Assembly: GCF_024972735.1 (NCBI RefSeq)
Contig: NZ_CP087722.1
Location: 62,001-126,000, forward strand
Direction: 5' to 3'
DNA: 64,000 nt
Origin: Halalkaliarchaeum sp. AArc-CO
Lineage (GTDB): Archaea; Halobacteriota; Halobacteria; Halobacteriales; Haloferacaceae
The position numbers and the translations under genes are program-made. Positions 3,872 to 63,554 of the stretch are shown one piece after another (within the stretch, counting starts at the first letter, position 1; each line of letters starts with the position of its first letter). The notes under the pieces were generated by a model. That model searched no databases and was not told the DNA's origin. It saw only the letters and a program-made list of their open reading frames with translations.

Positions 3872-4092
3872 AGTAATCTGGTTGATGTGGCAAATCGTTC
3901 TCTGCTGAAATCCAAAAGAGTATCGACTCAGATCAGTCCACACCCCTAAACGATCTAAGGGGTCTGCCACTATTATTTGGGAAATTATATGTTCGTGTTT
4001 CTTCAATAGATTTATTCTATCTGTCCCTCAGGTTTGATAACACATGCGTAAGGGGACTATCAGGACGTGCACTGGAGGGCTCCGATCCAGTC
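3872..4092. promoter_or_regulatory. Divergent promoter region of the defence island
   Basis: This 221 bp gap separates the two divergent halves of the island. AT-rich stretches occur around 3970-3996 (minus-strand CATATAATTT) and 4005-4030. They could serve as TATA boxes for the DruA-like gene and the plus-strand operon respectively. No clear palindrome for a dedicated regulator is seen. A single shared control region is inferred from the layout. Confidence 0.4.
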
Positions 4093-7370: not shown

Positions 7371-7371
7371 C

Positions 7372-10300
7372 ATGAAATCAATCAAAGAAGTCTCGGAAGA
7401 GCTCGAGAATGACCTTCAACAGTACATCGAATCACGTTACCACCTCCATCACCCGCGGCTTCTCAAGGAACGTCGTGCCCTGATGGACGAGGGAGAGACG
7501 GCCACCGAACCGTGGGTCGAGGCTACACCGACCTATGTTTCGGGGGATTCCCTCAGAGAACTGGGCTTGCCGAGCGAAGTCGTCGATTTGCTGAAAGATC
7601 TCGAAAACGACGAACTCGACATCTTCGATCCGCCGTACAATCACCAGGCCGACGCTCTTCAATCGTTCTTCAACGACGAGGACGACCTCATCGTATCCAC
7701 CGGGACGGGATCCGGGAAAACAGAGATTTTTCTTTACTCAATTCTGGGTCAGCTCGCCCAAGAGGCAGCACGAGGAGAGACAGCTGACCAACGGGGGATA
7801 CGGACATTAGTTCTCTATCCCATGAACGCCCTCGTCGCGGATCAACTCTCGCGGATGCGCCTACTCTTCGGTGATAAGGACGGGGCAGATACACTTGAGG
7901 ACTACATGGGTCGGCGGGTACAATTCGGGATGTACACGAGCCGTACACCCTATCACGGGGAGTATGACACCAGCAAGAACGATAATCTAGTCAAACCGAT
8001 TATCGACCGGTATCTCGACTTGGAGGAAGAACAGCCCAATCTCTATGAACAACTCGCAGAGAAAGGCCGCATTCCAGCCAAGGACCTCGAAGGGTTCCGG
8101 AATAAGGGCAAGAAAAAGGAGACACATTTCCGTACCCAACCCGGCGATACTGAACTATTCACGCGTCAGGAAATGCACACCCGCGATGGAAGCAACCCCC
8201 ATGGCGGGACGCCTGATCTCCTGATTACGAATTACTCGATGCTGGAGTACATGCTACTCCGGCCGATCGAACAACCCCTCTTTGAGGATACCCGTGAATG
8301 GCTGGCCGAGGACGAAGAGAACGAGTTGAATATCGTCCTCGACGAAGCTCACCTCTACCGAGGCGCCCAAGGAGCAGAGGTGGCACTCCTGTTGAGCCGC
8401 TTGCTCCAGAAACTCGGGATATCTCGCGAACGTGTGCGCTTCATCCTCACGAGTGCGACGATGGGCGAAAACGTAGAGGAAGCGGCCCCAGACTTTGCGG
8501 CCCAGCTCACAACCGGAGATCCGGACGATTTCTCAGTAATCACCGGTGAACAGGTGGAGTACGAAGGTGGAGAACCGAGCGAGAAACGCACGGCGCAACT
8601 CCTAGAGCGGGTTGGTTACCAACTCGATGATCCGTCGAAGATTCGTAACGTTGCGAGCGAACGAGGCTGGGATCCTCTTGAAAGTAATGACGTAGAATCG
8701 GTCCGTTCGTACCTCGCTGACCAGTTAGTCGATGACCCACTCTTCAGGTTAGCGCACGAATACCTTCGTGAAGAGCCACTGCGCCTATCGGTGCTTGCCG
8801 AAGAGTTGTTCGAGGACATCGATCAGGAGCTGGCTCGTGAGGCGACGGGCAATCTTCTGTACCTTTGTACCGAGGCCCGCCAGGGAGAGGACCAGGCGTT
8901 GCTTCCGACACGCCTGCATATGTTCCTCAAAGGGCTCCCCGCCCAGTATGCGTGTGTCAATCCTGAATGTAGCGGCCGCCGAGTTACGGAGGGGGAGAAC
9001 CTCCTTGGGCGCATCTACAGTAATCCGCACACGACCTGTGAGTCCTGTGGCAGTCGCGTCTTCGAACTGATTAGCCACCGCACCTGTGGAGCAGCATATC
9101 TGCGTGCCTATCGACGCTCTGACGACAACCGCGGGCCGACGTTCCTGTGGTCAGATCCTGAGAGCAGCGAGGACTTGGACGAGCTCCATCTCTTAGTTGA
9201 GGAACCTCGGGATGACCCGAATCCAGACCACGAACACGGACGCTCGCTCGCCGAGACGACGACCTCACGAAACCTCTCGATTGCCTCCGGCCATCTTGTT
9301 GATGATCGGCACGTGGGCGACGAAGGGCCGACCACTCATATCGAGGTTCAGGTCCCGACTGAAGAGCCGCCGGACGAGGACGGTGCATGGAGCTGGACTC
9401 AATGTCCGGCGTGCGGGATCAAAGAGCGACGCCGTCCCAATGGCGACACGAAGGTCGAAGATCTGGTCACCAAAGGTGAGGAACCATTCGCGCACAGCGT
9501 CCGCTCGATGTTCGGTATCCAGCCGACCGACCCACTCAAAGAGGAGTTCCCCAACGAGGGGCGCAAGGTATTGTGCTTCTCTGACGGTCGACAGAAGGCG
9601 GCCCGCTTAGCTCGCGATCTCCAATCGAACGTTGAATCCGACTCGTTCCGCGAGGTCCTAACCGACATTATTGGATCCGCAGATGGTGAGATCACGATGG
9701 ATCGGTTGTTCGCCGAGTTCGCAGTCTACTGTGCGAAAAACAACATCGTATTCTTCGACGACAGCGACCAATACACGAATCAGTCGGGTGTCGTGTATAA
9801 GGGTTCACGCTCCCACTTCGAGGATATTCGTGAGAACCTGTCCGATATTGTCGATGAGTACTACCTTGAGTCCATCGACGATATTCCGGAGGTGCCAGCC
9901 GCACGCAATGCGTTGTCGGAGCGTCCCCGCCAGTATGAGGAACTTCTCCTCCGATCGTTGGGCGATGAACAGTACTCCATCACCGGCGCTCTCGTCGGGT
10001 ACATTGCGCCGTCCGAGGAAGTGTTTGAGAAAATCGATGAAGCTGTCCCTGAAATTGAGACAGACCAACTCAAGAGCATCCTCATCGAGGCGCTTCGTCA
10101 TGCCTGCGAGGAACGGGCATTTGATTCAAGCATTGAAGCCAGACGACGTTCGAACTCCTATCCCTACCAAAATTGGATTGACCCGGACGATACGGGGCTC
10201 CCCCACAGCGAAATAATCCCTGAATATGTTGTAGAATCACTCGACGACGAAGTGCCGGAAGAGGCGTGGAATAGTCTGAGACGGGCGTTGATGACGACAG

Positions 10301-12795: not shown

Positions 12796-12799
12796 CGGA

Positions 12800-13663
12800 A
12801 TGGATGGGTCAGAACAGTTTGCACACGTAAACTGGTCGGCGTCGGCAGCACAGCTGTTCGAAGAGTGCCCCCGGCAGTTCTTTTATCGATACCAACAGAC
12901 CGCGTCTACCGAAGACTATAGTGAGTATACACCGTCGCCAGGAGCCTATCTAGGAACTATCGTACACGAATCTCTCGCGGGGCAGGTTGCACGATGGGCT
13001 CGGGGTGAGAACATCCATCTTCAGACTGCAACTGAATATGCGAAAGACGAACTTGAGAGGTATGTCGAAGCGAATACTGAGACGATTGCTGATCGGATTG
13101 ACGATACGGATGGGGAATCCTTCGATAGCGATTCCTTCACGCGGTCATTAGTTCGTACAGCCCGTAATCACATCAGGCAGTTCTTCCGGGTGATTTGGCC
13201 CCACCTTGAGGACCACCAGTATATCGCCCACGAAACGCGCCAAACGTTCGAAGTCTCCGAAGAACCCGTCACCGTCCAACCAGATCTCTGTACGCGAAAC
13301 CCAGAGGGAGACTTTGTCGTTACTGACTGGAAGACAGGTGCATATGACCGGTTTAGTAACCCGACAATACAGATGCAAGCATATGCGCTTTATGCTCACG
13401 AAGCGTATGAACCCGAAATCAGTCGGATTCGGGTCCAATTAGCCCATACTGGAAGTGGGGAGTTCGACCGAATGGTGCCGACCACGGAAGACATGAGACA
13501 GATCCGAGACCGGATTACGAATGATAGGGCCTTCTGGACGAGTATGGGGGACATCGAATCCTACAAGACCAATCCAGCAGTCCAGAAATGTAGCCAATGT
13601 TCGTACCTTCACCGGTGTATAGACGGACAAACCATCACGGGTGAAGAACCAGAACCAAACTAA
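12800..13663 (+). CDS. Cas4/RecB-like PD-(D/E)XK nuclease with probable Fe-S cluster
   Basis: The protein has 287 residues from the ATG at 12800, 4 nt after the helicase stop. Nuclease signatures are complete: GTIVHESL (catalytic histidine of RecB/Cas4 nucleases), VQPDL (first acidic residue), VVTDWKTG (D-W-K catalytic motif) and a following QMQAYALYA helix. A cysteine in FEECPRQFFYRY near the N-terminus plus KCSQCSYLHRC at the C-terminus give the four-cysteine arrangement of Fe-S Cas4/AddB-type nucleases. It is the last gene of the helicase operon, so it is probably the effector that degrades DNA processed by the helicase. Known Druantia types do not, as far as I recall, carry such a gene. 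Confidence 0.85.
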   Translation: MDGSEQFAHVNWSASAAQLFEECPRQFFYRYQQTASTEDYSEYTPSPGAYLGTIVHESLAGQVARWARGENIHLQTATEYAKDELERYVEANTETIADRIDDTDGESFDSDSFTRSLVRTARNHIRQFFRVIWPHLEDHQYIAHETRQTFEVSEEPVTVQPDLCTRNPEGDFVVTDWKTGAYDRFSNPTIQMQAYALYAHEAYEPEISRIRVQLAHTGSGEFDRMVPTTEDMRQIRDRITNDRAFWTSMGDIESYKTNPAVQKCSQCSYLHRCIDGQTITGEEPEPN

Positions 13664-13735
13664 GTAGTAAAGTGCGAATTAGGTCGTCTTATACCTCATC
13701 TACCGCATACAAATCAAATCGGATTATAGCACAAT

Positions 13736-14236
13736 TCAATCACGCAATTGATAAATCCACTTGCGACGAACAAAATCATCGACGGAGGAACGCCCTTCGC
13801 GCGACTCCCAGCCATCTCCTTGAGCTTTCTCTTCCCGAACCAGTTTGAATCCTGCCGCTGAATAAATTGTTCCCTTGTTACCTGCTACTCCAGCGTGAGC
13901 AGAAATCCGTTGATATCCCTCTAAGAACGCCCACTTTCGCGCGCGTGCGATGAGCCAAGAACCCGTGTTTGATGGTCTTTCAGGTCGCGATCCGTACCGT
14001 GTAATTGAGATTTCTTTATCTTCGTCAACCATTCGAGCCACTGGACGGCCGAGAACACAGACTGCAATTAGATTAGACTTATAACGAGCTCCGAAAGCAG
14101 CTTTCCATCCAGGAATACCACCCAATTTGTGGTCTACCATATCCGACTCGAGGAAATCGTTGATCTCGTTTCGGCTTCTCTCTCGGGTTAGTTTGAGATC
14201 CGATACAGAGTCGGGTACTGATATTGGATTTTTCAT
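13736..14236 (-). CDS. GNAT-fold protein, Mom-like
   Basis: The 166-residue protein has a GNAT-like core: a strand LIAVCVLGRPVAR, then SWLIARARKWAF with the helix after the acyl-CoA loop, then GNKGTIYSAAGFKLV near the C-terminus. The last two motifs resemble Mom-type DNA-modification proteins and related phage acyltransferases (a GTIY..aGF ending). The reaction cannot be read from the sequence; N-acyl transfer or a Mom-like base modification are both possible. It lies downstream of and convergent to the defence operon and is not cotranscribed with it. The ATG at 14236 is the only good start. Confidence 0.55.
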   Translation of the reverse strand: MKNPISVPDSVSDLKLTRERSRNEINDFLESDMVDHKLGGIPGWKAAFGARYKSNLIAVCVLGRPVARMVDEDKEISITRYGSRPERPSNTGSWLIARARKWAFLEGYQRISAHAGVAGNKGTIYSAAGFKLVREEKAQGDGWESREGRSSVDDFVRRKWIYQLRD

Positions 14237-14517
14237 CGTTTGCCTGAGGTAACTTGCGCCTCACCCAATCAGGCGCATAAAAAACAAAACGAGACCACCA
14301 GAATGGACCCATATTTCTGCGGTAGTACGTTCGGATCAGAGATTATCGAGGGACCTCAAAACTCGTAAAGTAGACAAGTCGTGAATGCTGATCATCTAGG
14401 AATGCCTCTTTCCGAGAACATCCCTATTGAGAGACCTATTAGTTAAGCTCAGGCACTCTTAGAAGCTATAAAAACAGCAATCAAGCAGAAGTAATGTAGA
14501 CCTTTCCGGAAACAACC

Positions 14518-14542
14518 CGGTCAGGCTTTTATGACCTGACCG
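14518..14542. promoter_or_regulatory. Inverted repeat upstream of the first orc1/cdc6
   Basis: CGGTCAGG at 14518-14525 is mirrored by CCTGACCG at 14535-14542 across a 9 nt spacer, 22 nt before the ATG. It overlaps the region where a core promoter or short leader would lie, so it could be an operator for autoregulation or a small stem-loop in the leader. No G-string origin box is recognised in the 14237-14564 gap. Confidence 0.4.
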
Positions 14543-14564
14543 AAAATCTGTCTATCAGACTCAA

Positions 14565-15593
14565 ATGATCCGCGATGCTCGCGTACTCCGGGCGGGGTTC
14601 GTCCCTCGAGAAGTTGAGCATCGCGACGCCGAAGTCAACCACCTCTCCAGCGTCCTTGAGCCCATCACGAACGGTGAACCCGCCGATACAGCAATCGTCA
14701 CCGGACCCAGCGGCGCCGGCAAGACCTGCATCTCGAAGTTCGTCACGGAACGGCTCCGTGAAGAGGTCCTCGACGTCGAGACGACCTACGTCAACTGCTG
14801 GCGCAACTACACCAGATTCCGGACCCTATACCAGATTCTCGACGACCTCGGCGCGACCATCGACATCCACCGGCAGTCGACTCCCCACGACGAACTCGTC
14901 GATCGCCTCCAGCAGCATGACGGCCCGCGAACCGTCGTCATCCTCGACGAGGTCGACCAACTCGAAGACCCCAGCGTCATCTACGACCTCCACAGCCTCC
15001 CGCAGTTCGCGATCATCTGCATCGCGAACAAGGAAGAGGAGCTGTTCAGTCGCGTCGACGACCGCCTCGTGAGCCGCCTGCGCTCCAGCGAACACGTCCG
15101 GATGGACAAGTACCACGACGAGCAGCTGTACGACATTCTGAGTGCGCGGGCGAAGTGGGGCCTCGACGAGGACGTCATCACCGACGACCAGCTCTATCGG
15201 ATCGCCGACGCGGCCGCCGGCGACGCCCGCCTCGCAATCGGCATCCTCCGAACGGCCGCCGGCAAGGCAGATCGCGAGAACCACGAACGCATCACCGACG
15301 ACATCCTCCTGGACGCCGCCGAGGATGCTCGGGCCCAGATCAAGCAGAAGAGCCTCGACTCACTCACCCCCCATCAGCGCGTCGTCTACGACGTCGTTCG
15401 CGAGCACGGCCCGGTCGGGCCGAGCGAGATTCACGAGCGCTATTCCGAGGACGTCGATGATCCGCGGACGAAGCGGACTATCCGCACGTACCTCTCGAAG
15501 ATGGAGCAGTACAACCTCCTCGAGGCGGAAGGGACGAGTCGAGACCGAGAGTACTCGCTCGTCGATTCAGCGGCGGCGTCACCGATGCAGTAA
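14565..15593 (+). CDS. Orc1/Cdc6 family replication initiator
   Basis: The 342-residue AAA+ protein has Walker A GPSGAGKT near residues 46-53, Walker B VVILDEVDQL, sensor IICIANKEE and sensor 2 GDARLAIGILRTA, then a C-terminal winged-helix part (LTPHQRVVYDVV). It starts very close to the P-loop domain (MIRDARVLRAGFVPREVEHR), typical of the short plasmid-type haloarchaeal Orc1/Cdc6 paralogues. It would bind origin boxes or act in replication control. The coding sequence is more GC-rich than the upstream intergenic DNA. No ORB array is seen next to it, unlike the second copy at 26743. Confidence 0.93.
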   Translation: MIRDARVLRAGFVPREVEHRDAEVNHLSSVLEPITNGEPADTAIVTGPSGAGKTCISKFVTERLREEVLDVETTYVNCWRNYTRFRTLYQILDDLGATIDIHRQSTPHDELVDRLQQHDGPRTVVILDEVDQLEDPSVIYDLHSLPQFAIICIANKEEELFSRVDDRLVSRLRSSEHVRMDKYHDEQLYDILSARAKWGLDEDVITDDQLYRIADAAAGDARLAIGILRTAAGKADRENHERITDDILLDAAEDARAQIKQKSLDSLTPHQRVVYDVVREHGPVGPSEIHERYSEDVDDPRTKRTIRTYLSKMEQYNLLEAEGTSRDREYSLVDSAAASPMQ

Positions 15594-15611
15594 CGGTGAC
15601 CCCGTCAGCTA

Positions 15612-16298
15612 TCAGGAACTGAACTCGCCTAGGCCCGATTGCTCGTGGTCCAGTGGCTCGATGACCTGAGGATCGTCGTTGCCAGGGTTGTTGACCCGCG
15701 TCGAGATCTCGTAGGCGTCCAGATCGTCCTTCGGATACGGCTGGCACAGTTCCTTGCGGGTGTCCGGGTCTGCGGCGAGCCAGTCAGATTCCGCGTCCTG
15801 CGGGAGGACGACCGGCATCCGGTCGTGGATTGAGTTCATCAGGTCGTTCGGCTCCGTCGTGAGAATCGTGACGCACGAGATCGTCTCGTCGTCGCCTTCC
15901 CAGACGTCCCAGAGCCCGGCCATCGCGAATACGGGGTCGTCCTCCCGGTAAATCCGATAGGGCTGTTTCGACCCGCCGTTCGGCGATTTCCATTCGTAGA
16001 ACCCTGACGAGGGGACGAGGCAGGGACGTGATTCCCACGCCCGCTCGAAGACGCGTTTCTCGTCGGCAGTCTCGGAGTGAGCGTTGATGATGCCCTCCTC
16101 GGGTTCGTCCGCCCAGAACGGAATCAGCCCCCAGTGGTAGGCATCGATCTCGTCGGAAGCCTCGTTCGTGATGATGTGGAGGTCGTCACCAGGTGCGATG
16201 TTGTATCGGGGTGTGTACCCGCCGTCCGCGACGACCTCGGCATCGAAGCGGGCCTCGAGGTCTGCTTGGTCGATGAAGAGCGAGTTCCGGCCACACAT
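15612..16298 (-). CDS. SRAP (YedK/HMCES-type) protein
   Basis: The family needs the catalytic cysteine directly after the initiator methionine. I therefore place the start at the internal ATG at 16298 (MCGRNSLF) rather than the upstream in-frame start at 16328. The 228-residue protein shows the family features: Cys2, PRYNIAPGDDL, NAHSETADEKRVF, RPCLVPSSGFYEWK, and ITTEPNDLMNSIHDRMPVVL with the conserved HDRMP. SRAP proteins crosslink to abasic sites in single-stranded DNA and so shield them during replication or repair. It is convergent with the orc1/cdc6 gene, with ends 19 nt apart. Confidence 0.93.
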   Translation of the reverse strand: MCGRNSLFIDQADLEARFDAEVVADGGYTPRYNIAPGDDLHIITNEASDEIDAYHWGLIPFWADEPEEGIINAHSETADEKRVFERAWESRPCLVPSSGFYEWKSPNGGSKQPYRIYREDDPVFAMAGLWDVWEGDDETISCVTILTTEPNDLMNSIHDRMPVVLPQDAESDWLAADPDTRKELCQPYPKDDLDAYEISTRVNNPGNDDPQVIEPLDHEQSGLGEFSS

Positions 16299-16363
16299 AC
16301 ATCCGGGTCCGGCCGGGAGAGTCTTCAACGTATCTGGAAATGTGAACGGCTCTGAATCGTCGA

Positions 16364-16954
16364 TTAGAGCTCGGTCGGCGGCAGAAGCTCACAGAGAACA
16401 GCTGCTTGTTCAAGAAGTGCGTCGAAGAGCCGTTCAGTCGGTCGATATAGCGCGTGGTGTTCATCAACAGAGTATGGGGTTTTCTCATCATCTGTGTATG
16501 AGAGAAATCCACACTCAAGAAGCGGAGCAAGGGTAGTATCCAGCGCAGTTCCGGAACGGCCGGATTCGGCTTCAAGAGTGTGTCGAGGGAACTCAGAAAG
16601 GAACCGCGTACAGCAACTCAGGACGTGAGCACGTCGATCAGCGAATAGTTCGTTGAGCGCAGTACGATGGGTGCGTGTCCAATACTCATCGAGTTTGACG
16701 TATGTGCGAACGATCGGGGATAGCTCGTTCAAGGAACCAGTAGCATGGACGATGCCAAGGTCGTTGAGCGCATATTGGTCTTTGGTGTCCAAAGACTCGC
16801 CGAGGGGATGGAGAACAGTTTGAAGCGCCTCGTGGTACCGCGAAGTGAGGAATTCCCCGGCAACAACGTGCGCGTTCACGATATTTCGAGTTGGGTGCAT
16901 TGACTCGTGGTGGTCGGGGTTTCGGTGGTCGACGTGGGTTCGTGGATAGCTCAT
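16364..16954 (-). CDS. Hypothetical protein
   Basis: The 196-residue soluble protein is rich in histidine near the N-terminus. The C-terminal third (LAPLLECGFLSY...HHALYRPTERLFDALLE) could be a winged-helix-like fold, but I do not recognise a family. A second possible start (MHPTRN) lies 18 codons in. The TTAACCAAC inverted repeat at 17029-17070 lies 75 nt upstream and could regulate this gene. Confidence 0.6.
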   Translation of the reverse strand: MSYPRTHVDHRNPDHHESMHPTRNIVNAHVVAGEFLTSRYHEALQTVLHPLGESLDTKDQYALNDLGIVHATGSLNELSPIVRTYVKLDEYWTRTHRTALNELFADRRAHVLSCCTRFLSEFPRHTLEAESGRSGTALDTTLAPLLECGFLSYTDDEKTPYSVDEHHALYRPTERLFDALLEQAAVLCELLPPTEL

Positions 16955-17028
16955 AGAGCACCTCTTCCAACGTGGCGTTGAGCATTAACATTCCGAGCAG
17001 TCAGGCTCGAGACTGCAGCTGGGTAGGT

Positions 17029-17070
17029 TTAACCAACACACCGCCGTCAATACGGCCGAGTGTTGGTTAA
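17029..17070. repeat. Inverted repeat copy 1 (TTAACCAAC family)
   Basis: The 11 bp perfect arms TTAACCAACAC (17029-17039) and GTGTTGGTTAA (17060-17070) are separated by a 20 nt spacer that is not conserved among copies. It lies between the divergent genes at 16954 and 17227. Other copies are at 21480, 25553 and 28723. Confidence 0.85.
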
Positions 17071-17165
17071 CACGAAGTACGATCGATTCAGGAACTATTC
17101 TCGGAAACAGGATCCAAACGGAGACTACTCGGGACTGTACCGGGATTGGAGGGGATCACATCGAG

Positions 17166-17208
17166 TTTCCTGAAACGCGGAAGCGACACGCTGCGGCTTA
17201 TCGGGAAC
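17166..17208 (+). promoter_or_regulatory. Conserved promoter-type element, copy 1
   Basis: A ~42 bp element with the core CTGAAACGCGGAAGCGACAC and a trailing TATCGGGAAC lies 18 nt before the ATG of the RecA-fold gene. A close match lies 22 nt before the DNA polymerase ATG (23325-23368) and a third at 21614-21654. Conservation at two starts implies shared control of the replication genes. Confidence 0.6.
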
Positions 17209-17226
17209 GTAGACAACTAATCGAGT

Positions 17227-18171
17227 ATGGGAGAACACTCAACGTCGAACCGATTGGCGGTGGACCAGCCGACACGGGGCGCTGACCGCAATCGGTCCCT
17301 TGCTGACCAGGCCGATCCGACTACGGACGAGATGTTGTTGCCGTCACTCGGCGACGGCATCACGCTGCTCGACGTCGAAGGAGGCCGCGGCGTCCCGATC
17401 CTGCAGTCGCTCGTACTCGACCATCTCCTCCTGCACGACGGGCCCGCCTTCTGGGTCGACGCAAATGGTCACGCGACGACGACGACACTCGCCCAGATCG
17501 CGCCCAGTCAACGGTTGCTCAACCGAATTCACGTCGCCCGCGGATTCACCGCCTACCAGCACTACGGCGCCGTCTGTGATCTCCCGTCAGCGGTGAACAA
17601 AGTAATCCAGACGTCCACCGCCAACGCCCGGGCAGCCGGTCGAGGGGCGCCAGGTCGCGACGAGGACACGTCGCCCCACACGCCCGCCCTCATCGTCGCG
17701 CCGGCCGTCGACGCCCAGTACCGCGCCGACGATACCCTCGGCGAAACCCACGCGGGAACCCTTCAGGCTCGAACTCTCGCTCGGTTGGCAACCTACGCCG
17801 AGGGGTACGACATCCCGGTGCTCGTTACGCGAAACGAACGAAACGAATTCACCGAGTCAGTCGCGACGGTCGCCGACCACCACCTGGAGTGCGAGCAGAC
17901 TCGGATGGGGCCACGGGTCGTCGGCAAAGACTTCGAGACGCTCGTCTATCCCGTCGACGACGGCGCGTACTACCAGACGACGTTCGCGTACTGGCGGCAG
18001 CTGCTCGCGGCACGCGCCACGCAGGTCGGCGTGGAACCGACAACGTCGACGCCGTCGACGCCGACTCCGGAGGGTGTCGGGACAGGCGTCACAGCTGACG
18101 GTGAGACGGTGGCGGCCACTACGGACCCCTTGCTCGATGCGTGGACCGCGACCGGGACAGGAGGCCGATAG
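17227..18171 (+). CDS. RecA-fold protein of the replication block, without a classical P-loop
   Basis: The 314-residue protein has the strand pattern of RecA/RadA-like domains (ITLLDVEGG; GPAFWVDANGHATT; PALIVAPAVDAQYRAD; DIPVLVTRNERNEF). The expected GxxxxGK(T/S) loop is absent; GGRGVPILQ sits at that place. It may therefore be a non-hydrolysing paralogue. The C-terminal ~60 residues are low-complexity T/P/G. It is followed after 2 nt by a small coiled-coil gene and then a DEDD exonuclease, and shares its promoter element with the DNA polymerase. The likely role is in plasmid DNA replication or repair. Confidence 0.65.
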   Translation: MGEHSTSNRLAVDQPTRGADRNRSLADQADPTTDEMLLPSLGDGITLLDVEGGRGVPILQSLVLDHLLLHDGPAFWVDANGHATTTTLAQIAPSQRLLNRIHVARGFTAYQHYGAVCDLPSAVNKVIQTSTANARAAGRGAPGRDEDTSPHTPALIVAPAVDAQYRADDTLGETHAGTLQARTLARLATYAEGYDIPVLVTRNERNEFTESVATVADHHLECEQTRMGPRVVGKDFETLVYPVDDGAYYQTTFAYWRQLLAARATQVGVEPTTSTPSTPTPEGVGTGVTADGETVAATTDPLLDAWTATGTGGR

Positions 18172-53691: not shown

Positions 53692-54159
53692 TCAATCTGA
53701 CCCATACTCCTCGACTCTCGGAGTGTACGCCGAACGGAGAGATTCAGATATTGCTTCTCGTGCTCTGGATGGAATTTCTCCATTGACGTAGTAAAACGAC
53801 GTGGGAGGCACGAATTCGTCGTCAAACTCCCAGGGATTGACCGAATTTTGGAGTTGGTGCACCTCGTCAATTTTGTACGCATATCCTGTTTCTACGCCAG
53901 TGAAATAGTCCATAAACCGCTGCCTTCGCTGGAATCCCGATTCCTCTTGGTATTGCATCCATAGATTGTCAGGTGTATCCTCGATCACATCATCTATCGT
54001 AAAAGCACCGACAATCTCTTGAGTCGGAGACGAAGCGTAGAGAAACACAGTATCGATTGCATCGCTGTCGCGGAAGGAAGTTCGGCGAAACTCGTATCGC
54101 TTCTCGCCCGAAAAGATCTTTTCGACGAATTCGGGCTTAATCGAGAGTAAAGCGTCCAT
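53692..54159 (-). CDS. ASCH-domain protein
   Basis: The 155-residue protein has the ASCH/PUA-like start LLSIKPEFVEKIFSGEKRYE followed by FRRTSF and VFLYASSPTQEIVGAFTIDD. ASCH domains bind RNA or modified nucleotides. It overlaps the EVE-like gene by 23 nt and is third in the PIN-GNAT operon, so it probably works with those proteins. Confidence 0.8.
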   Translation of the reverse strand: MDALLSIKPEFVEKIFSGEKRYEFRRTSFRDSDAIDTVFLYASSPTQEIVGAFTIDDVIEDTPDNLWMQYQEESGFQRRQRFMDYFTGVETGYAYKIDEVHQLQNSVNPWEFDDEFVPPTSFYYVNGEIPSRAREAISESLRSAYTPRVEEYGSD

Positions 54160-54514
54160 CGATTCCTCCTTGCTCTTTGATATACTTGTAATCCTCTTCG
54201 TCGATTCGGCGCATGACCTGTAATGGACCAGTTAGAACGTCGTTGTTTAATAGGTTCTTATAGGACAGAAAATCATTGAGGTCGAAGTGCCACCGGAATA
54301 GGAAGACATTCGTACCCGATTCAGCCTGTTGTTTGATTTCCTCGTCGGTGAAGACGGAGCGCTTCCCCACGATCCGTTTGACAAGGTTTGGATCCTCGAG
54401 GTTGTAATGAACCTCCTCGCACACACCAAGCGACGTCACCTCTCGATGGTCCTGGCTGCGGTAGAAAAGGAGTATGTCTCCTTCTTTAGCTTGGTAATTC
54501 TTCGCGCTAGTCAA
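54137..54514 (-). CDS. EVE/PUA-like small protein
   Basis: The 125-residue protein begins MTSAKNYQAKEGDILLFYRS and continues with VTSLGVCEEVHYNLEDPNLV, FLFRWHFDLND and LTGPLQVMRRIDEEDYKYI. The order of strands recalls EVE/PUA-like domains that read modified bases. It overlaps the PIN-GNAT gene by 4 nt and the ASCH gene by 23 nt. The fold assignment is by pattern only. Confidence 0.55.
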   Translation of the reverse strand: MTSAKNYQAKEGDILLFYRSQDHREVTSLGVCEEVHYNLEDPNLVKRIVGKRSVFTDEEIKQQAESGTNVFLFRWHFDLNDFLSYKNLLNNDVLTGPLQVMRRIDEEDYKYIKEQGGIDGRFTLD

Positions 54515-55638
54515 GTACGCTTTTTGATCGCATTCCCCTCCGGGTCAAATCGACCGTCGAACTCAGGAAGCAAGGTTTGACGTTTCGAATACGATGTAAA
54601 TAGTCGACGGTGATATTCAGGCCGAATCGGTATCAAAAACTTCTGAACCTCTGGACCGTCACAAAATGACGGGTAAAACTTGGTCGTCGCCTCGATTGGC
54701 GAGGGGTCTTGGCCCGGCCCGGGGATGAGTTTCTTGACAAAGATTGCTTCCCCATCATCTTCGTTGGCCGTATGTTCAAACCCATAACTGCGAGCAAGTT
54801 GGACGAAATAATCCTCTTCAGCCTCATCCCAATAATAGGTGAAGTAAGTCTCATCAAGCTCGTGATGGATTGCCTCTCTGATAGCTAGAGAGATGAGCAA
54901 CTCGCCGATTTTTGATCCCCAACGCCTTTTTGCCACTTTCAGTGTGGAGATTTTCATCCGGCGTTTCCGATCGAGCGTCGGTGAGGATCCGATCGCTTCG
55001 ACCTCATGCGGCTTGATCACGAGAACCGCGCCAATCGTACCGTCACCATTATAATTAACCCAAGCTGTGCGGTCGGCGTGTCGCTCGGCCCAGTCAGCAA
55101 AATTTTCGTAATCTGCCTTCAACGAATCGAAAATCGAATCATCTAAATCTAGATTGCCCAGTGATGTCCGCTCGATTGACAGCGGTCCATGGAGTTTCGG
55201 TCCTTCAGGCCGGAAGAACTCCCAGGCGGTCTCAATGCTAAACACCCGGTCTTCGATTCCGAGGTCGATCGCTTTCTTATGGATTCCTTGGTCTTCTGTG
55301 ATAAGAAAATCGGTTCGATCCTCGTAAACGGAATAGAGTAGTGCATTATCGACGAGCTCGTTTTCACAAGCGGTTTCCGGCACATGCTGTCGGAACTCCG
55401 TATCATTCTCACCGGGATAGGAGGGGTATCCCAGTCTTTCATACGTCTCGATACGGGAAACGTTCTTTTTCCGCCTTTTGGTGTTGTTATCCCCGCGAAT
55501 TTCTTGTTCGGAGAGCGGGTGAATTAGAATATCATGTTTTGCCTCTTTGAGCGCTCGTTCGAGTTTACGAAGCGTTTCGGGGACGATATCGTCATCCTCA
55601 CGGTGGATGAAAATGTTCGTGTCGATGAGGATCTTCAT
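54511..55638 (-). CDS. PIN-GNAT fusion protein
   Basis: The protein has 375 residues. The N-terminal PIN nuclease domain has MKILIDTNIFIHRED (first Asp), LVDNALLYSVYED (Glu/Asp pair) and DFLITEDQGIHKKA (last acidic site). The middle GNAT domain has WVNYNGDGTIGAVLVIKPHE, MKISTLKVAKRRWGSKIGEL (acetyl-CoA loop RRWGSKIG) and YFVQLARSYGFEH. A short C-terminal extension follows. A nuclease and acyltransferase in one chain, with EVE-like and ASCH proteins after it, points to RNA- or nucleotide-targeting stress or defence functions. Confidence 0.85.
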   Translation of the reverse strand: MKILIDTNIFIHREDDDIVPETLRKLERALKEAKHDILIHPLSEQEIRGDNNTKRRKKNVSRIETYERLGYPSYPGENDTEFRQHVPETACENELVDNALLYSVYEDRTDFLITEDQGIHKKAIDLGIEDRVFSIETAWEFFRPEGPKLHGPLSIERTSLGNLDLDDSIFDSLKADYENFADWAERHADRTAWVNYNGDGTIGAVLVIKPHEVEAIGSSPTLDRKRRMKISTLKVAKRRWGSKIGELLISLAIREAIHHELDETYFTYYWDEAEEDYFVQLARSYGFEHTANEDDGEAIFVKKLIPGPGQDPSPIEATTKFYPSFCDGPEVQKFLIPIRPEYHRRLFTSYSKRQTLLPEFDGRFDPEGNAIKKRT

Positions 55639-55857: not shown

Positions 55858-56691
55858 ATGCACCGCAGAGCATTCCTATCCACGGTTGGGGGACTCGTGC
55901 TGGCGGGGTGTACCGACGCGGCCGACGAACCGGCAGATCCCACGCCGACACCGACCCCAGCCGAGACCGCGACGGCGACGGCGACGCCCACGCCGGAGAC
56001 CAGCCCCACGCCGACGCCGACCGACGAGCCAGCCGGGGCGAACACACCACCCGAGGTCGTCATCGAATCCCGGGAGTGGGCAATCGAGGGCGAGCGCGTT
56101 GAGGCGATCGTCCAGAACGTTGACGACGTAGCCAGCGGGCCGGTGACGGTGTCGGCGCTGTGGTTCGACGACGACGCGCGGTACCTGGGGCGCGACAGCG
56201 TATCGATGCCGGCGCTGCCGGCCACGACGTCGTGGCTGGCCGGGATCGACGTCATAGCGCCGTTCGCGGTGGGGGAGTTCCAGTTCCAGCTGGCTGTCGA
56301 GCCGCTGCTGGCGACGCCCGAGGGAGTGACACTCGAGGAAGCGCGTGTCGATCAGGGTGGCGAGCGCATCGTCGGCGTTATCGCAAACGACCGCGAGGCG
56401 GCGGTCGGGCTGACGGCCCGCGGGGCGGTGACCGACGTTACCGGATTCGTCTGGATTTCCCCGAGTTCGTGTGCCGACAGATTCCACACAGCGCTTCAAT
56501 CTCTAACAAGTTCTTTTGGAACCGGGTGGTCCATTCATTCAACCGGTTTCGGAATGTTGCTTCAATCCTTCACAGGTTCGTCTGAGACACGATTGCTTCG
56601 ACCCCACAAGGCTCCGTCTGAAACTGGACTCGGAGCCGTGTGGGGTGAACGAGCAGTTGGGGCAGCTTCAACCCCACAAGGGTCCGTCTGA
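55858..56691 (+). CDS. Lipoprotein, 3' end running into the CRISPR array
   Basis: From the ATG at 55858 the protein has a lipobox (GGLVLAGCTDA), a Thr/Pro linker and a domain of about 130 residues with VTVSALWFDDDARYLGRDSV and FAVGEFQFQLAVEPLL, resembling FxLYD-type domains. After TDVTGFVW (about 56452) the reading enters the degenerate end of the CRISPR array. The ORF ends only in the fourth repeat at 56691, so the native C-terminus seems lost or very near 56460. Confidence 0.7.
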   Translation: MHRRAFLSTVGGLVLAGCTDAADEPADPTPTPTPAETATATATPTPETSPTPTPTDEPAGANTPPEVVIESREWAIEGERVEAIVQNVDDVASGPVTVSALWFDDDARYLGRDSVSMPALPATTSWLAGIDVIAPFAVGEFQFQLAVEPLLATPEGVTLEEARVDQGGERIVGVIANDREAAVGLTARGAVTDVTGFVWISPSSCADRFHTALQSLTSSFGTGWSIHSTGFGMLLQSFTGSSETRLLRPHKAPSETGLGAVWGERAVGAASTPQGSV

Positions 56692-59600
56692 AACATTCGG
56701 TCAGTACCGCTCCCGTGCTGATCGGTCACGCCGCTTCAACCCCACAAGGGTCCGTCTGAAACGCTGTGGGACGCCGACAAATCGCGAGACGTCGCGGAGC
56801 TTCAACCCCACAAGGGTCCGTCTGAAACCGCCAGTCTCCGGGCCGCCTTGACCGCCGGTTGTCGCTTCAACCCCACAAGGGTCCGTCTGAAACTCGCCCC
56901 GCCGAAGGCTTCCGTCACCTGGGCGATGCTTCAACCCCACAAGGGTCCGTCTGAAACCAGCGCCGGCGAATCTTTCCACCGGTTGTTGAGGTACGCTTCA
57001 ACCCCACAAGGGTCCGTCTGAAACGCAGACGACAGGGACAACGAGAAGGGTTCGTCTGCAGGTGCTTCAACCCCACAAGGGTCCGTCTGAAACAGCGCTC
57101 GACGTCCCGGCTCATGAGTCTCCTCCGATAGCTTCAACCCCACAAGGGTCCGTCTGAAACCGCTCCTGTGATCCGCCAGTATCAGGATGACCGTTGCTTC
57201 AACCCCACAAGGGTCCGTCTGAAACACCTCCTGTGTGGTCGATATAATTCCCCGAGATCGTGCTTCAACCCCACAAGGGTCCGTCTGAAACGGGGTCAGG
57301 TAAAGCCGTATCATGGTTAGGGGTCAGGGCTTCAACCCCACAAGGGTCCGTCTGAAACGGTAGATCCGTTTCACGCCGTCTGTCGGCAGCGTGATGGACG
57401 ACAGCTTCAACCCCACAAGGGTCCGTCTGAAACTGCCGCAACGACGCAGACGCCGTAACGCCCGACGGCTTCAACCCCACAAGGGTCCGTCTGAAACACG
57501 ATCATCTCTTTACCGTCGATTGTCTCAGTCGGGCTTCAACCCCACAAGGGTCCGTCTGAAACGCGACGGTCGACTCAAAGACGACCTCGTTGCTTGAGCT
57601 TCAACCCCACAAGGGTCCGTCTGAAACGCGAGAACTACTGGAGAAAGCGAAGGACGCACAGGCTTCAACCCCACAAGGGTCCGTCTGAAACAAGATAGTT
57701 GACTTGCCAGATGGGTCTGATTTTGCTTCAACCCCACAAGGGTCCGTCTGAAACAATGTGAAATGTAACAATGAGTAAGTCACTATCTGCTTCAACCCCA
57801 CAAGGGTCCGTCTGAAACCCTTGGGACTGTTGAAATGTTGGGTGTATCGTTTGGTGCTTCAACCCCACAAGGGTCCGTCTGAAACACTTACTGGCTTTAA
57901 ATGTTCCAGTTGATAGTGAGAGCTTCAACCCCACAAGGGTCCGTCTGAAACATTGATACAGGTGATATTACACAACTATCTGGTGAAAGCTTCAACCCCA
58001 CAAGGGTCCGTCTGAAACACCGGAATCGGTAATCGATAATAATGTTACAAATGGCTTCAACCCCACAAGGGTCCGTCTGAAACTATTGCATCTTACATTA
58101 CTGGGTTAACACGTTTGCTTCAACCCCACAAGGGTCCGTCTGAAACGAGGTCTGCGAGGTCGCGGCCATCACCGAGTCCATGCTTCAACCCCACAAGGAT
58201 CCGTCTGAAACCCGACGCGCCGCGGCACCGCGGCGCGATCGTCTGGGAGCTTCAACCCCACAAGGGTCCGTCTGAAACCTCGGTCGTTTTGGTCTCACCG
58301 TCTGCGGCGGGCATGCTTCAACCCCACAAGGGTCCGTCTGAAACGGATGGCCGTCGAACACAACGACGGAGTACTGTGGATGCTTCAACCCCACAAGGGT
58401 CCGTCTGAAACTGTTGTCGATGGTTTCGCTCGGCAGATGTTCCTCGCGGCTTCAACCCCACAAGGGTCCGTCTGAAACGCGCGGGGATGGAAGCAAGACC
58501 AACCGGCGTAAAGGCGTGCTTCAACCCCACAAGGGTCCGTCTGAAACTACGTACACACCGACGACAAGCACGGCCGGGAGTAGGCTTCAACCCCACAAGG
58601 GTCCGTCTGAAACACCGGCAAGCTCGAGCGGAGCGAGCGACCGACCCGGCTTCAACCCCACAAGGGTCCGTCTGAAACCAGACCTAAAGCCAGGGCGAGA
58701 TTCGTTTTGGGATTGCTTCAACCCCACAAGGGTCCGTCTGAAACTAGTGCTGGGTTACCATCTTTACTGATTTCTTCTGTGTGCTTCAACCCCACAAGGG
58801 TCCGTCTGAAACGCGCGGTTCCGGGGACGACCCAATCGCCAGCCATGCGCTTCAACCCCACAAGGGTCCGTCTGAAACGTCTAGTCCCATGTTGGATTTA
58901 GGATTTTATGTGTGCTTCAACCCCACAAGGGTCCGTCTGAAACCCGTCGGGACGGGTGTGCTGGGCGGCCGGGCAATCGCTTCAACCCCACAAGGGTCCG
59001 TCTGAAACCAAATTTGATTGTAGCTAGCAGTTGCGTCTTGTGAGTGCTTCAACCCCACAAGGGTCCGTCTGAAACGCGCGGTGTATCTGGATTCGATCTT
59101 CGAGCAAGAGCTTCAACCCCACAAGGGTCCGTCTGAAACGGACGACGACATCGATCCCGAGTTTGACCAGCTGCGGCTTCAACCCCACAAGGGTCCGTCT
59201 GAAACAACTCCCATAGGTGCGCCGTGAGGAGCTTCAACCCGCTTCAACCCCACAAGGGTCCGTCTGAAACACGGAGAGCTTGAGGGGATAGCTGCAGCGA
59301 TCGACGCTTCAACCCCACAAGGGTCCGTCTGAAACTCGCCCGCGCCGCTCCGATCATCTACGTGTTCGGCGCTTCAACCCCACAAGGGTCCGTCTGAAAC
59401 TCGGGGCGATCATCCTGAGGATCCTGACGACCTGATGCTTCAACCCCACAAGGGTCCGTCTGAAACCAGCTCGAGGAGGAGATCGCCGAAGTTGAGGAGG
59501 TGGCTTCAACCCCACAAGGGTCCGTCTGAAACACCGACTCGCGTCACGATCTCGCAGATGGCCGAGGGCTTCAACCCCACAAGGGTCCGTCTGAAACTCA

Positions 59601-60051
59601 CGTCCCCGTCGGCCCATGCGGACCGACGGGGAGCTTCAACCCCACAAGGGTCCGTCTGAAACAAGGCCCGTCAGTGCTTCTCTCGCCGAAGGCAGACGCT
59701 TCAACCCCACAAGGGTCCGTCTGAAACGGATCTGCTCCGACAATCGCCAGATTGGAAGCGATGCTTCAACCCCACAAGGGTCCGTCTGAAACGAGGGGGG
59801 TTTTGTTGGTCGCGGGCGTGGTCGAAGCTTCAACCCCACAAGGGTCCGTCTGAAACTCGCGTACTCGTCGGTGAGTGCGTAACTGAGGTTCGCTTCAACC
59901 CCACAAGGGTCCGTCTGAAACCTTGACGCCGAACGCAAGCTTGCACAGCACGGCAAGCTTCAACCCCACAAGGGTCCGTCTGAAACGGGATTATCCGCAC
60001 GTTCTTGAATATGGAGAAGTGGCTTCAACCCCACAAGGGTCCGTCTGAAAC
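56493..60051 (-). CRISPR. Type I-B CRISPR array, about 55 repeats
   Basis: The 30 nt repeat reads on the minus strand GTTTCAGACGGACCC...GGGTTGAAGC, the haloarchaeal I-B type. I count 55 units with spacers mostly 34-40 nt. The three leftmost repeats (56493, 56559, 56595) are degenerate, and the second and third are only 6 nt apart, marking the old, distal end. The repeat at 58182 has one change. At 59231 a 10 nt partial repeat precedes a full one. Transcription should run leftwards from the cas side. Confidence 0.97.
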
Positions 60052-60192
60052 CATGGCCCATTTCGGGCACACAGGTGGTCTATCGAAGGTATCCACCAAA
60101 GATGTTCCGTCGACCTGCAATACCTCACAAACCCCCGGGGGGTCGATGACAGACAACAGCAACGGCAACGGCCCCTAGTTGTTCTCCAAGAA
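60052..60192 (-). promoter_or_regulatory. CRISPR leader, short
   Basis: Only 141 bp separate the last repeat from the cas3 stop. The region is not strongly AT-rich; it contains a run CCCCCGGGGGG near 60130. It should hold the array promoter, but it is short for a haloarchaeal leader and may be truncated. Confidence 0.45.
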
Positions 60193-62742
60193 TTACTGCT
60201 CACGAAGACCAGCACCCGACGCCAGCGCATACCACGACGACTTGCGATCGTCGACGACGGCAAACTCATCCAGCGTGACCGACGGGAATCCGAGTTCCTG
60301 CAGCATTGCCGCTGAGTCGTCGAGTCCTCTCGCACGATCAGGGGGAACGGTGGCAAATAGCTGCTGGAGAGTTGTAAACGAGATGCGGCCAGTCTGAGTG
60401 GCTCGGTCGGCTTTTGCGGTGACATATTCCTCGAGGAACTCTAACTCGGCGGCAGAGCGGATCACGAGAACGTCCTCACTGTCGTCGGTGATCAACGAGG
60501 CCTCCCGAAGTGTGTCACCCTGTGCACGAGCATACGCCTCGACCAGCCGATCGTGGGCGTGGTCTCGGTGGTCGCTTGCATGCAACCGGTCGTAGTAATG
60601 TTCGACGCCGTCGGTGAGCATCGTTAACTCCGGAATCGTCCGTCCCTCATCTCGAATACGTCCGAGTGCAACGCTGGTTGGCGTGAGCCGATCACCACGA
60701 CGAGCGTAGACGAGTTGACTCGGCAGCCGATCGGTGGCATCACTATCCACTCTCCACAAGACGACAGACCCACGTTCACCTTCGAAGGACCGATTACACC
60801 TCCCCGCAGCCTGGACGAGTGCCGGTAACGGAGCAAAATCCCGATACACACGGTCAAAACTGAGATCGACCCCCGCCTCTACCAGCTGCGTACTCGTCAC
60901 CACAAGCGGCGGGCGGGTCGCCCCTGACGATTGGAGTACTTGCCTGATGAGTTCGATCAGCAGCCTTCGATCGACGGGTCGCAGGGCAGCCGTCAACGTG
61001 GCGGTTATCAACTCGGGAGTGGTCTCCTCGAGGCGGGCGTGTACCTGGTCGTACAGCCGTCCCGCTAGCTCCTCGATGCTACCGTTCGTTTCGAGGTGCC
61101 TGATAAGTTCCGCGCTATGAGTCGTGACGAATCTCTCGACAATCTCTCCCAAGTCGACAATAGACCGATCGCTCGCGGTCGCTCGGATCGCCGCGGTTAG
61201 TTCGGTTGCACTACGAACGGTGTTGGCGATCGCAAGCGTATCGGTCCCCTCACGAAGGGTCTGGGAGACGACTCGTCGACCGGCCGCCGAAGGAGTAAGC
61301 GCTGCTGCAGGCGCCGATCCCCCGAGCGGCACCGACTCGTCGATATGGAAGCTGACGCGCGGGTTTTCGCCGAGGAATTCGAAGTACGTCATTGACTCGG
61401 GCACGAGTTCGGCTGTCGATAGTGGGACACTACTGTGATCAACGAACCGGGGCTGCGTCGCGGTCATCAGAATCACGGTCGCATCATAGTCCTCAACGAG
61501 GATATCGAACAGTTTGGTAACGAGCTGCCACCACTCCCGTGGGAGCGCCTGGGGTTCGTCGACGATGATGGTCGCATCCTGTAACGCCGGTAGTTTCAGC
61601 GACTGGGTGTTCGACCCACCGGCGAGACTCTCGAAGAGTTGCACGAACGTTGTCAAGACCAGTCCGGAACGCCAGGTTTCAGCATACATCGTCTCCGTGC
61701 CGTCGGACACTGATTCGTCGTCGATCGTCGTCCGTGTCTCCGCGAGGTGGTGATGGAGTGTGTACGCGTCACCACTCGGTGTCACGTCGAACTGTGCCCT
61801 GATTTCGTCGTCGACCTGGTCGAGAATGGTCGTGTACGGCAGGGCGTATATCACTCGCCCATCGGTTCTGTGTGCGTGTCGCAATCCAGCGTTCAGCCCG
61901 GCAAAGGTCTTGCCGAAGCCAGTGGGCAACGTCAGCGTGAAAATCCCGCCGTCGTCGGCAGCTAAGTCGGCGAGTCGTTCGGCAACGTCCGACTGGGCTC
62001 GCGAGCGAAGGGTGTTTAACTCGCGTTCGATTCCAGTCGCTTCCCCTTCGAAACTGATCTGTTCCGGATCCAACCGCGGCACCGCCGACCCGGCTGAAAC
62101 GCCGGTCGCATCGAGTTTGTCGGCACACGAGAGTGTGGCCCAGATCCGCTGCACGAGCGGATAGAAGTCAGCGTCAGAATCGTCCCTTGAGGGGCGACCG
62201 TGGCGAAACACCTGCCGGTACCGCTCCGGGTTGTCGATCGGGATTTCGTCCCACTCAAGCGCTCCATCGGTAGCAGTCTCAAGTAGTTCCGTTGCGTCGG
62301 CCGCCGCTTCCTCGTCGATACGCTGCAGTTTCTGAACGAGATGTACGTACGGACCGGTTTGGGTTCCCCACTTCGAGAGGTCTTCCTCCAGATTGCCGAG
62401 AGTCTGGTGATGTTTGAGTACGGCGTAAAAGCCACCTAACACCGCTGGCATGGAGAATCCCTGTGCTTTCAGTGCGTGCAGGGTGACCAGCGCTCCCGGA
62501 GCAGCGTGATATTCACTTTGCCGGGGCGGCCGGGGCGGCTGCTCGCGTATATACGACTGGAACGCTGGTGTGAGCTTGCCGAAGTCGTGCAGGTGTGCGA
62601 CCGTCGTGAGTAGTTGCTGCAGTGAGTCTCCTCGGGGCGTGGTCGTGTCCGCCGGCGTCAACACCCGTGCGTTCGCCGCAACTCCGTTTAGATGGACGGC
62701 AAGCGGCTGGTTTGGTCGTGCGAGCGGCGTGTCGAAAGACAT
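60193..62742 (-). CDS. cas3: CRISPR-associated helicase-nuclease Cas3
   Basis: The protein has 849 residues. The HD nuclease part has the histidines of AVHLNGVAANA, VAHLHDFGKLTPAF and VLKHHQTLG. The SF2 helicase part has Walker A TLPTGFGKTFAG near residue 275, DEPQ in TIIVDEPQALPREWW near 394, VILMTATQPRF, and the motifs STQLVEAGVDLSFD and QAAGRCNRS. It unwinds and degrades targets bound by Cascade. It is 14 nt from cas5 and is the gene nearest the array. Confidence 0.96.
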   Translation of the reverse strand: MSFDTPLARPNQPLAVHLNGVAANARVLTPADTTTPRGDSLQQLLTTVAHLHDFGKLTPAFQSYIREQPPRPPRQSEYHAAPGALVTLHALKAQGFSMPAVLGGFYAVLKHHQTLGNLEEDLSKWGTQTGPYVHLVQKLQRIDEEAAADATELLETATDGALEWDEIPIDNPERYRQVFRHGRPSRDDSDADFYPLVQRIWATLSCADKLDATGVSAGSAVPRLDPEQISFEGEATGIERELNTLRSRAQSDVAERLADLAADDGGIFTLTLPTGFGKTFAGLNAGLRHAHRTDGRVIYALPYTTILDQVDDEIRAQFDVTPSGDAYTLHHHLAETRTTIDDESVSDGTETMYAETWRSGLVLTTFVQLFESLAGGSNTQSLKLPALQDATIIVDEPQALPREWWQLVTKLFDILVEDYDATVILMTATQPRFVDHSSVPLSTAELVPESMTYFEFLGENPRVSFHIDESVPLGGSAPAAALTPSAAGRRVVSQTLREGTDTLAIANTVRSATELTAAIRATASDRSIVDLGEIVERFVTTHSAELIRHLETNGSIEELAGRLYDQVHARLEETTPELITATLTAALRPVDRRLLIELIRQVLQSSGATRPPLVVTSTQLVEAGVDLSFDRVYRDFAPLPALVQAAGRCNRSFEGERGSVVLWRVDSDATDRLPSQLVYARRGDRLTPTSVALGRIRDEGRTIPELTMLTDGVEHYYDRLHASDHRDHAHDRLVEAYARAQGDTLREASLITDDSEDVLVIRSAAELEFLEEYVTAKADRATQTGRISFTTLQQLFATVPPDRARGLDDSAAMLQELGFPSVTLDEFAVVDDRKSSWYALASGAGLREQ

Positions 62743-62756
62743 GGGCTTCCCTCTCG

Positions 62757-63554
62757 TTACAGGAAACAGACGGTATCGCCGTTGACGCTGTAGGCCTCTA
62801 CATCGGCCGTTTCGATTTGCCCGCCGTCTGTCGGGTAGGCATACGATACGAATCCGGTAGTCTTCCGGCCGCCGTTTGCCTGCGTCATGTAGGCCGGGGT
62901 TCGCTCCATCGCATAGGAGACGTCCGCAAGCGGCGTGACTTTGGCTTCCGGCAGCGTCGAATCGACTGCAGATACGGATTCCGGGCCGGTGACCGTGCCG
63001 ACACTCGATTCAGTGATATCGGCTAGACACTCGGTTTTGCCGAGCGAGGGCGTGTATACGGAGCGTACTGACGGCGGTCCCGTCTCGGAATCTGCATCGA
63101 GTCGATCGACGAGTCGATCCATCCATTCATCATCATCGAGGACGACGTGGAGCCGGTAGGCCGGATCACAGAGGTATTCGAACGCCCGGCGCTTCCGTTC
63201 TCGTTCGAGTACCTCTGGTGGGATGACCGTCTTGCCAGAGACACCCTCCGCAGTCTGGATATCTCCACCTGCTGTCGGCAGCGTCAACATCGGCACTTGC
63301 ATCGTCCGCAACGGTCGCTGCGGGACGATCGCGACCGCCGACGAGTCCCGGGCGAACACATCGTAGTAAGAATCTCGCGGCTCGCCGAGAATCGCGGCTA
63401 GCAACCCCGCGACGGTCGTCCGCGGGATTACCCGGTAGGTCTGCTTGTCGTTGGTGGTGTCGATCCGGCGGAAATGCGCCCAGTCGCCGCTGACGGTGAG
63501 GGAGACGCACCGCCGGCTGCTGGGGTCGAACTCATTCATCGGTGGCTCGCTCAC
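62757..63554 (-). CDS. cas5: Cas5 (type I-B)
   Basis: The protein has 265 residues. The N-terminal RAMP strand (CVSLTVSGDWAHFRRID) is followed by the conserved IPRTTVAGLLAAILG segment and a glycine-rich C-terminal part ending in VEAYSVNGDTVCFL, as in Cas5 of haloarchaeal I-B systems. Cas5 holds the 5' handle of crRNA in Cascade. Its start overlaps the cas7 stop by 4 nt. Confidence 0.93.
   Translation of the reverse strand: MSEPPMNEFDPSSRRCVSLTVSGDWAHFRRIDTTNDKQTYRVIPRTTVAGLLAAILGEPRDSYYDVFARDSSAVAIVPQRPLRTMQVPMLTLPTAGGDIQTAEGVSGKTVIPPEVLERERKRRAFEYLCDPAYRLHVVLDDDEWMDRLVDRLDADSETGPPSVRSVYTPSLGKTECLADITESSVGTVTGPESVSAVDSTLPEAKVTPLADVSYAMERTPAYMTQANGGRKTTGFVSYAYPTDGGQIETADVEAYSVNGDTVCFL

Follow-up and report, generated by a model that had tools for sequence, protein, structure and literature searches.

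Three overlapping ORFs, all on the minus strand within positions 53692-55638 of the window (the 64,000-nucleotide stretch analysed here, G000:C1:62001-126000 of a haloarchaeal 167-kb contig), raise the question of how many genes the locus really holds and what they do together. An earlier note had read them as three genes combining a PIN nuclease, an acyltransferase and two probable modified-nucleotide readers, in a system that it could not name and that would, as a hypothesis, sense modification and attack RNA. Comparison with the PADLOC models gave a different gene count. ORF1 matched PDC-M11A over profile positions 1-367 (E 1.3e-114), ORF2 matched the same 501-position model over positions 371-500 (E 1.7e-32), and ORF3 matched PDC-M11B (E 1.3e-44). 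Because the PDC-M11A profile runs unbroken over both, ORF1 and ORF2 are adjacent halves of one PIN-GNAT-EVE gene of about 499 codons, and the three-gene appearance of the operon arises because a frameshift has cut this large gene in two. The three ORFs do lie where the note had placed them, but two of them are parts of a single gene; since M11A is in two frames, standard gene calling would yield a three-gene listing. ORF2 is probably not an independent gene, having a TTG start and no evident Shine-Dalgarno sequence. In Pfam, the GNAT model Acetyltransf_1 scored 22.3 bits in ORF1, above the cut-off, and ASCH scored 20.2 bits in ORF3, just below it; EVE appeared in ORF2 as a sub-threshold fragment covering profile positions 35-72 only, and PIN was weak in the window ORF1 (E 0.14, against 3.6e-5 for PIN models in relatives). 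The locus is thus a member of the already described PIN-GNAT-EVE/ASCH family (PDC-M11 in PADLOC-DB 2) with its toxin gene split. The features of the locus and of its surroundings are listed in Table 1.

Table 1. Features of the PDC-M11 locus and of neighbouring defence genes (window positions).
Feature	Position	Strand	Remarks
Gene weakly like SspF/DndF	154-1713		
Druantia type I-like cluster	1754-12795		
DruA	1754-4006		
DruD-like	5544-7370		
DruE	7372-12795		
ORF3, PDC-M11B, ASCH-domain protein, putative antitoxin, intact	53692..54159	-	155 aa; PADLOC, model
M11A/M11B overlap	54137..54159	-	23 nt
ORF2, 3' part of PDC-M11A, remaining EVE-like domain	54137..54514	-	125 aa; TTG start, -1 frame
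ORF1 stop TGA	54511-54513	-	
Frameshift, one-base net deletion	54514..54528, at about 54519-54520	-	Nine intact relatives in one frame
ORF1, 5' part of the PIN-GNAT-EVE (PDC-M11A) gene	54511..55638	-	375 aa; PADLOC, Pfam, catalytic residues
ORF1 domains			PIN, residues ~1-140; GNAT, ~150-305; then first strand and helix of the EVE-like domain; intact-orthologue model
Type I-B CRISPR array, 53 repeats (GCTTCAACCCCACAAGGGTCCGTCTGAAAC)	56585-60100		~1 kb from the operon
Cas3b	60193-62742		Behind the CRISPR array
Cas5b	62757-63554		Behind the CRISPR array

The nature of the split was examined against intact relatives, found by searching 292 and 392 haloarchaeal genomes with M11A profiles. At the junction the window frame ends as ...EGNAIKKRT-stop and is taken up again in the -1 frame, whereas the relatives read through as GNAIKKAYL. 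All nine other haloarchaeal M11A genes, from four families, are intact at this point and have 497-499 codons; the relative from Halorubrum aidingense (L002), a single 499-aa ORF that is 66% identical, reads ...EGNAIKKAYLTGAKNY... there. The alignment indicates that one base is lost from the window M11A at about 54520. As modelled for an intact orthologue (mean pLDDT 79.8, pTM 0.61), the EVE domain begins with a strand (332-337) and a helix (339-345), both encoded by ORF1, and the lesion falls in EVE strand 2 (371-376). Since the onset of the domain lies in ORF1 and the lesion inside a strand, the 125-residue ORF2 product is an incomplete EVE barrel. The suggestion that this product is PUA/EVE-like was therefore right as to the fold, but only as the last part of the EVE domain of a larger protein. 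With the EVE barrel cut and the PIN and GNAT-core residues kept, the window copy probably does not work as a complete effector and is either inactive or left as a PIN-GNAT fragment whose partner is intact.

The split could instead be functional, by programmed -1 frameshifting at C-AAA-AAG or by termination-reinitiation at the TTG, which would make the EVE fragment a separate subunit. A -1 shift at AAAAAG would restore the M11A frame, and the TTGA at the junction permits reinitiation. The EVE fragment is also as well conserved as the PIN-GNAT part: it shares 67% identity with the corresponding region of the H. aidingense protein, a similarity equal to that of the remainder, and the EVE part has a dN/dS of 0.11-0.15 in this comparison, the one useful value for the large gene of the window, synonymous sites being saturated for most pairs. 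The figure for the N-terminal part against L008, for which only 102 codons aligned, was set aside. Such a low value, however, is equally expected of a recent lesion, which it fits. The gene is split at this point in none of the nine haloarchaeal relatives, other disrupted copies break elsewhere (residues about 74, 205-230 and 196), the cut lies inside an EVE beta-strand, and the TTG of ORF2 is without an evident Shine-Dalgarno sequence. The absence of a split at the junction among the haloarchaeal relatives rules out programmed frameshifting as a conserved feature, and we regard a functional split of either kind as highly improbable.

The frameshift might also be an error of assembly, the system being intact in the living strain; the deletion adjoins a short A run, and the gene, well conserved for the rest, has no other lesion. 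We compared 800 kb of the same genome with 800 kb of a relative, which gave 56 usable genes. These orthologous chromosomal genes (~62 kb) held no true frameshift, the sole candidate being read as an antisense ORF, which makes it unlikely (at a bound of roughly 7%) that M11A contains an assembly error. Independent lesions in the M11A genes of other genomes also speak against it: further archaeal copies (G419, G505 and G538) are disrupted at different places, and G419 is a single-contig assembly. Overall we consider a fault of the assembly very unlikely, and that a real lesion has probably split the gene. Three points add to the published description of the family: the candidate status of this copy as a split pseudogene, the recurrent disruption of M11A, and the retention of the overlap with its nested start (see below). 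Seven cases of a broken toxin gene beside an intact partner were counted, and none of the opposite kind; this asymmetry fits a toxin-antitoxin system but is not significant and was rejected as proof of one, gene length alone giving it a probability of ~0.16.

The two genes travel together. M11B lies directly downstream of M11A in all 10 haloarchaeal genomes that have M11A, and none of the 392 haloarchaeal genomes has M11A without M11B, which bears out the earlier guess of a single conserved unit. M11B-like genes without M11A occur in five genomes. One solitary M11B (L141 in G124, 6766-7233), 54% identical to that of L004, adjoins an apparent helicase gene and has no M11A nearby; it is an orphan antitoxin candidate.

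The overlap of the two genes is exactly 23 nt in the window and in all nine haloarchaeal relatives. The start codon of the window M11B, and a GGAGG a few bases upstream of it, lie inside the codons for the C-terminal GGID of M11A. The same 23 nt recur in 21 of about 24 further archaeal copies examined and in the Methanothermobacter phage psiM100, the lambda-like Escherichia phage PhiR47_2, a Pseudomonas plasmid, two Lactobacillales phages and a Phocaeicola plasmid (Bacteroidota). Among viral contigs the overlap is 23 nt in 60 of 74 and 29 nt in the other 14; a scan of viral contigs with the haloarchaeal alignment as the query found no relative. The 23-nt overlap is widespread and not universal, since alphaproteobacterial plasmid copies use other layouts, with the ASCH gene convergent or upstream and an ATPase in addition. 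A nested start and a 23-nt overlap shared by very distant copies show that the two genes are inherited together as a cassette, and the conserved overlap offers a direct handle on translational coupling of toxin and antitoxin, one useful extra beyond a mostly ordinary locus. In psiM100 (L025, 1554-4846), most of PIN-GNAT-EVE falls within what is annotated as 'inserted fragment IFa', beside the ASCH gene, a relative of which also occurs in phage psiM2.

The system does have a name and a published description. Bell et al. (2020, PMC7641849) reported (PIN)-GNAT-EVE proteins whose operons almost always include an ASCH protein and lie near type I R-M and CRISPR-Cas systems, and predicted a toxin-antitoxin function for them; according to these authors none of the modules had been experimentally characterised. 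In its treatment of the PIN-GNAT-EVE/ASCH architecture their paper cites Iyer et al. 2013. The window shares with the operons of Bell et al. the domain order, the adjacent ASCH gene and the proximity to R-M/CRISPR, and differs in that its large gene is split by a frameshift. Likewise both window genes match the PDC-M11 models, with the PIN, GNAT and EVE-like domains in the expected order but in two frames, and the ASCH gene adjacent; the single intact ORF for the large protein, which a working member needs but descent does not, is absent. A PIN-less pair in phage PhiR47_2 (PV340567.1) was named 'GevT toxin / GevA antitoxin' by its depositors. This phage-borne pair has the same GNAT-EVE and then ASCH order with the same 23-nt overlap, at ~26% identity to the intact haloarchaeal toxin and 38% for the ASCH partner. 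A survey of defence in archaea from 2026 states that validation is lacking for most PDCs and leaves M11 unmentioned, and literature searches for PDC-M11, GevT and GevA found no experimental paper. Members of the family occur in archaea, bacteria and temperate phages, beside R-M and CRISPR systems.

We next consider the active sites and folds. PIN domains are typically RNases. All four PIN acidic residues (D6, E46, D97 and D116) are present in the window copy and are conserved among PIN-bearing homologues, position 46 being Asp in some. PIN is absent among the structure-search matches listed, which GNAT and ASCH structures fill, and this has no bearing on its fold. The GNAT domain of the intact-orthologue model (residues ~150-305) matches N-terminal acetyltransferases (VIA Z about 15); the Foldseek matches listed include the tRNA-acetylating toxin TacT (5fvj), and AtaT is also among the structural matches. 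The GNAT-core residues are kept in the window copy. In the acetyl-CoA loop (R/Q-x-x-G-x-G/A) the last Gly is kept, and a Lys that is invariant among the haloarchaeal proteins takes the position of the middle Gly of Naa50. M11A thus has the GNAT fold in common with the type II toxins TacT and AtaT, but it differs from them by its extra PIN and EVE domains and by the Lys in its acetyl-CoA loop, and its partner is an ASCH protein instead of their ribbon-helix-helix (DUF1778-type) antitoxin.

The C-terminal EVE region of the same model matches ZmASCH of Zymomonas mobilis (TMt 0.77-0.82). ZmASCH (PDB 5gus) is also the closest solved structure to M11B, whose model (pLDDT 84.6) superimposes on it with an rmsd of 1.9 A (E 5e-12) and whose profile matches it at E 1e-23; human TRIP4 ASCH and YqfB match more weakly. 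The PIN, GNAT, EVE-like and ASCH content proposed earlier is upheld by Pfam, PADLOC, the PIN residues and the two models, the structure prediction once suggested as a check having returned GNATs and ASCH for the intact orthologue and ZmASCH for M11B. ZmASCH cuts ssRNA in vitro, dependent on Tyr47, Lys53 and Ser128; the Tyr and the Ser are kept in the window M11B, and the Lys is not.

The match to YqfB (TM about 0.7) brings in the idea that M11B is an enzymatic antitoxin, removing an acetyl group added by the GNAT domain as YqfB does on N4-acetylcytidine, which this ASCH enzyme hydrolyses with a Thr24-Lys21-Glu74 triad. Deacetylation would pair neatly with an acetyltransferase, and a GxKxxxxR context is common to the two proteins along with the fold. 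Outside this motif, however, the profile match between M11B and YqfB is negligible, and at the position of the nucleophile Thr24 all the aligned M11B sequences have an invariant Glu; Lys21 and Arg26 are kept. M11B as an N4-acetylcytidine amidohydrolase was rejected, the nucleophile position not being kept, and we give an antitoxin of this enzymatic kind very little credence.

Taken as an intact unit, the system is probably a toxin-antitoxin-like abortive defence module that acts on RNA and is held in check by the ASCH protein. From its domains, the large protein would dock on RNA through its C-terminal EVE domain and would acetylate RNA through its GNAT domain, aminoacyl-tRNA or a base being the likeliest target; in the host-borne version the N-terminal PIN, to judge by its active-site residues, would add RNA cleavage. 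Since the PIN-less phage version was called a toxin by its depositors, the core may consist of GNAT-EVE, with PIN added to it. The ASCH protein would be translated from the same mRNA through its nested start signal and, as the pairing, the gene overlap and the annotation suggest, would restrain the large protein by binding or by competing for nucleic acid. Phage interference or R-M failure might, speculatively, release the large protein. This assignment is supported by the PADLOC span, the nine intact relatives, the constant presence of M11B with M11A, the 23-nt overlap, the GevT/GevA deposit, the R-M/Hma/CRISPR neighbourhood, the kept PIN and GNAT residues, the structural matches of TacT and ASCH, and the published prediction (Bell et al. 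2020, PMC7641849). It is weakened by the atypical acetyl-CoA loop with Lys for the middle Gly, by 'GevT toxin' being a depositor's name behind which no paper was found, and by one relative without an obvious R-M neighbour; the lesion asymmetry, at ~0.16 by gene length, fits it but adds no significant support.

The genomic surroundings are those of defence genes. R-M or Hma genes adjoin seven of the nine haloarchaeal relatives by profile: type IIG enzymes beside L013, L016 and L019, type I subunits beside L014, L015 and L023, and HmaB/HmaC beside L022. The neighbour of L017 reads by eye as a COG1743-type methylase, making it the eighth relative, and inspection of the L012 neighbourhood gave no obvious R-M gene. 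In the window itself, the CRISPR array is ~1 kb away and Druantia genes lie at 1.7-12.8 kb. At L022 (G338, 10574-17507) the operon is divergent from HmaC/HmaB (DUF499/COG1743-type), as Bell et al. reported for such neighbourhoods.

The same neighbourhoods can be read in another way, with GNAT acetylating a DNA or RNA base as a self mark, the EVE and ASCH domains reading that mark, and the operon supporting R-M with no killing. DNA-base acetylation is a proposal of Iyer et al., as reported by Bell et al. (PMC7641849), who also describe ASCH fused to HsdS in Methanohalophilus. This fusion, the frequent company of type I R-M and of type IIG enzymes, the two PUA-like reader domains and, close to one of the plasmid copies, a 7-cyano-7-deazaguanine synthase gene all favour a reader/writer of base modification. 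Against it, the phage version is flanked by cI and Kil, without R-M, and is labelled toxin/antitoxin; the RNase nature typical of PIN does not suit a reader/writer, and ZmASCH acts on ssRNA. We think a modification system of this kind unlikely and prefer the toxin-antitoxin module.

Within that module, a bolder and distinctly tentative proposal is that a single effector combines RNA acetylation, RNA cleavage and modified-base reading, restrained by an ASCH antitoxin whose start signal is locked into the last codons of the toxin, from archaea to lambda-like phages. To our knowledge, no classified toxin-antitoxin type uses an ASCH antitoxin. If the proposal is true, the single effector would carry out a new chemistry; one example would be that EVE guides the acetylation of a modified tRNA, which PIN then cleaves.

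Two distant copies have neighbours of their own interest. In the Lactobacillus prophage Lj965 (L033, 2304-4399), four tRNA genes (Ser, Glu, Tyr and Phe) immediately precede the GNAT-EVE/ASCH pair, which may point to a tRNA target or to a replacement set. On a Sinorhizobium garamanticum plasmid (L027, 233-1582), PIN-GNAT-EVE is preceded, at a distance of a few genes, by the 7-cyano-7-deazaguanine synthase gene, an arrangement that would suit a connection with 7-deazaguanine.
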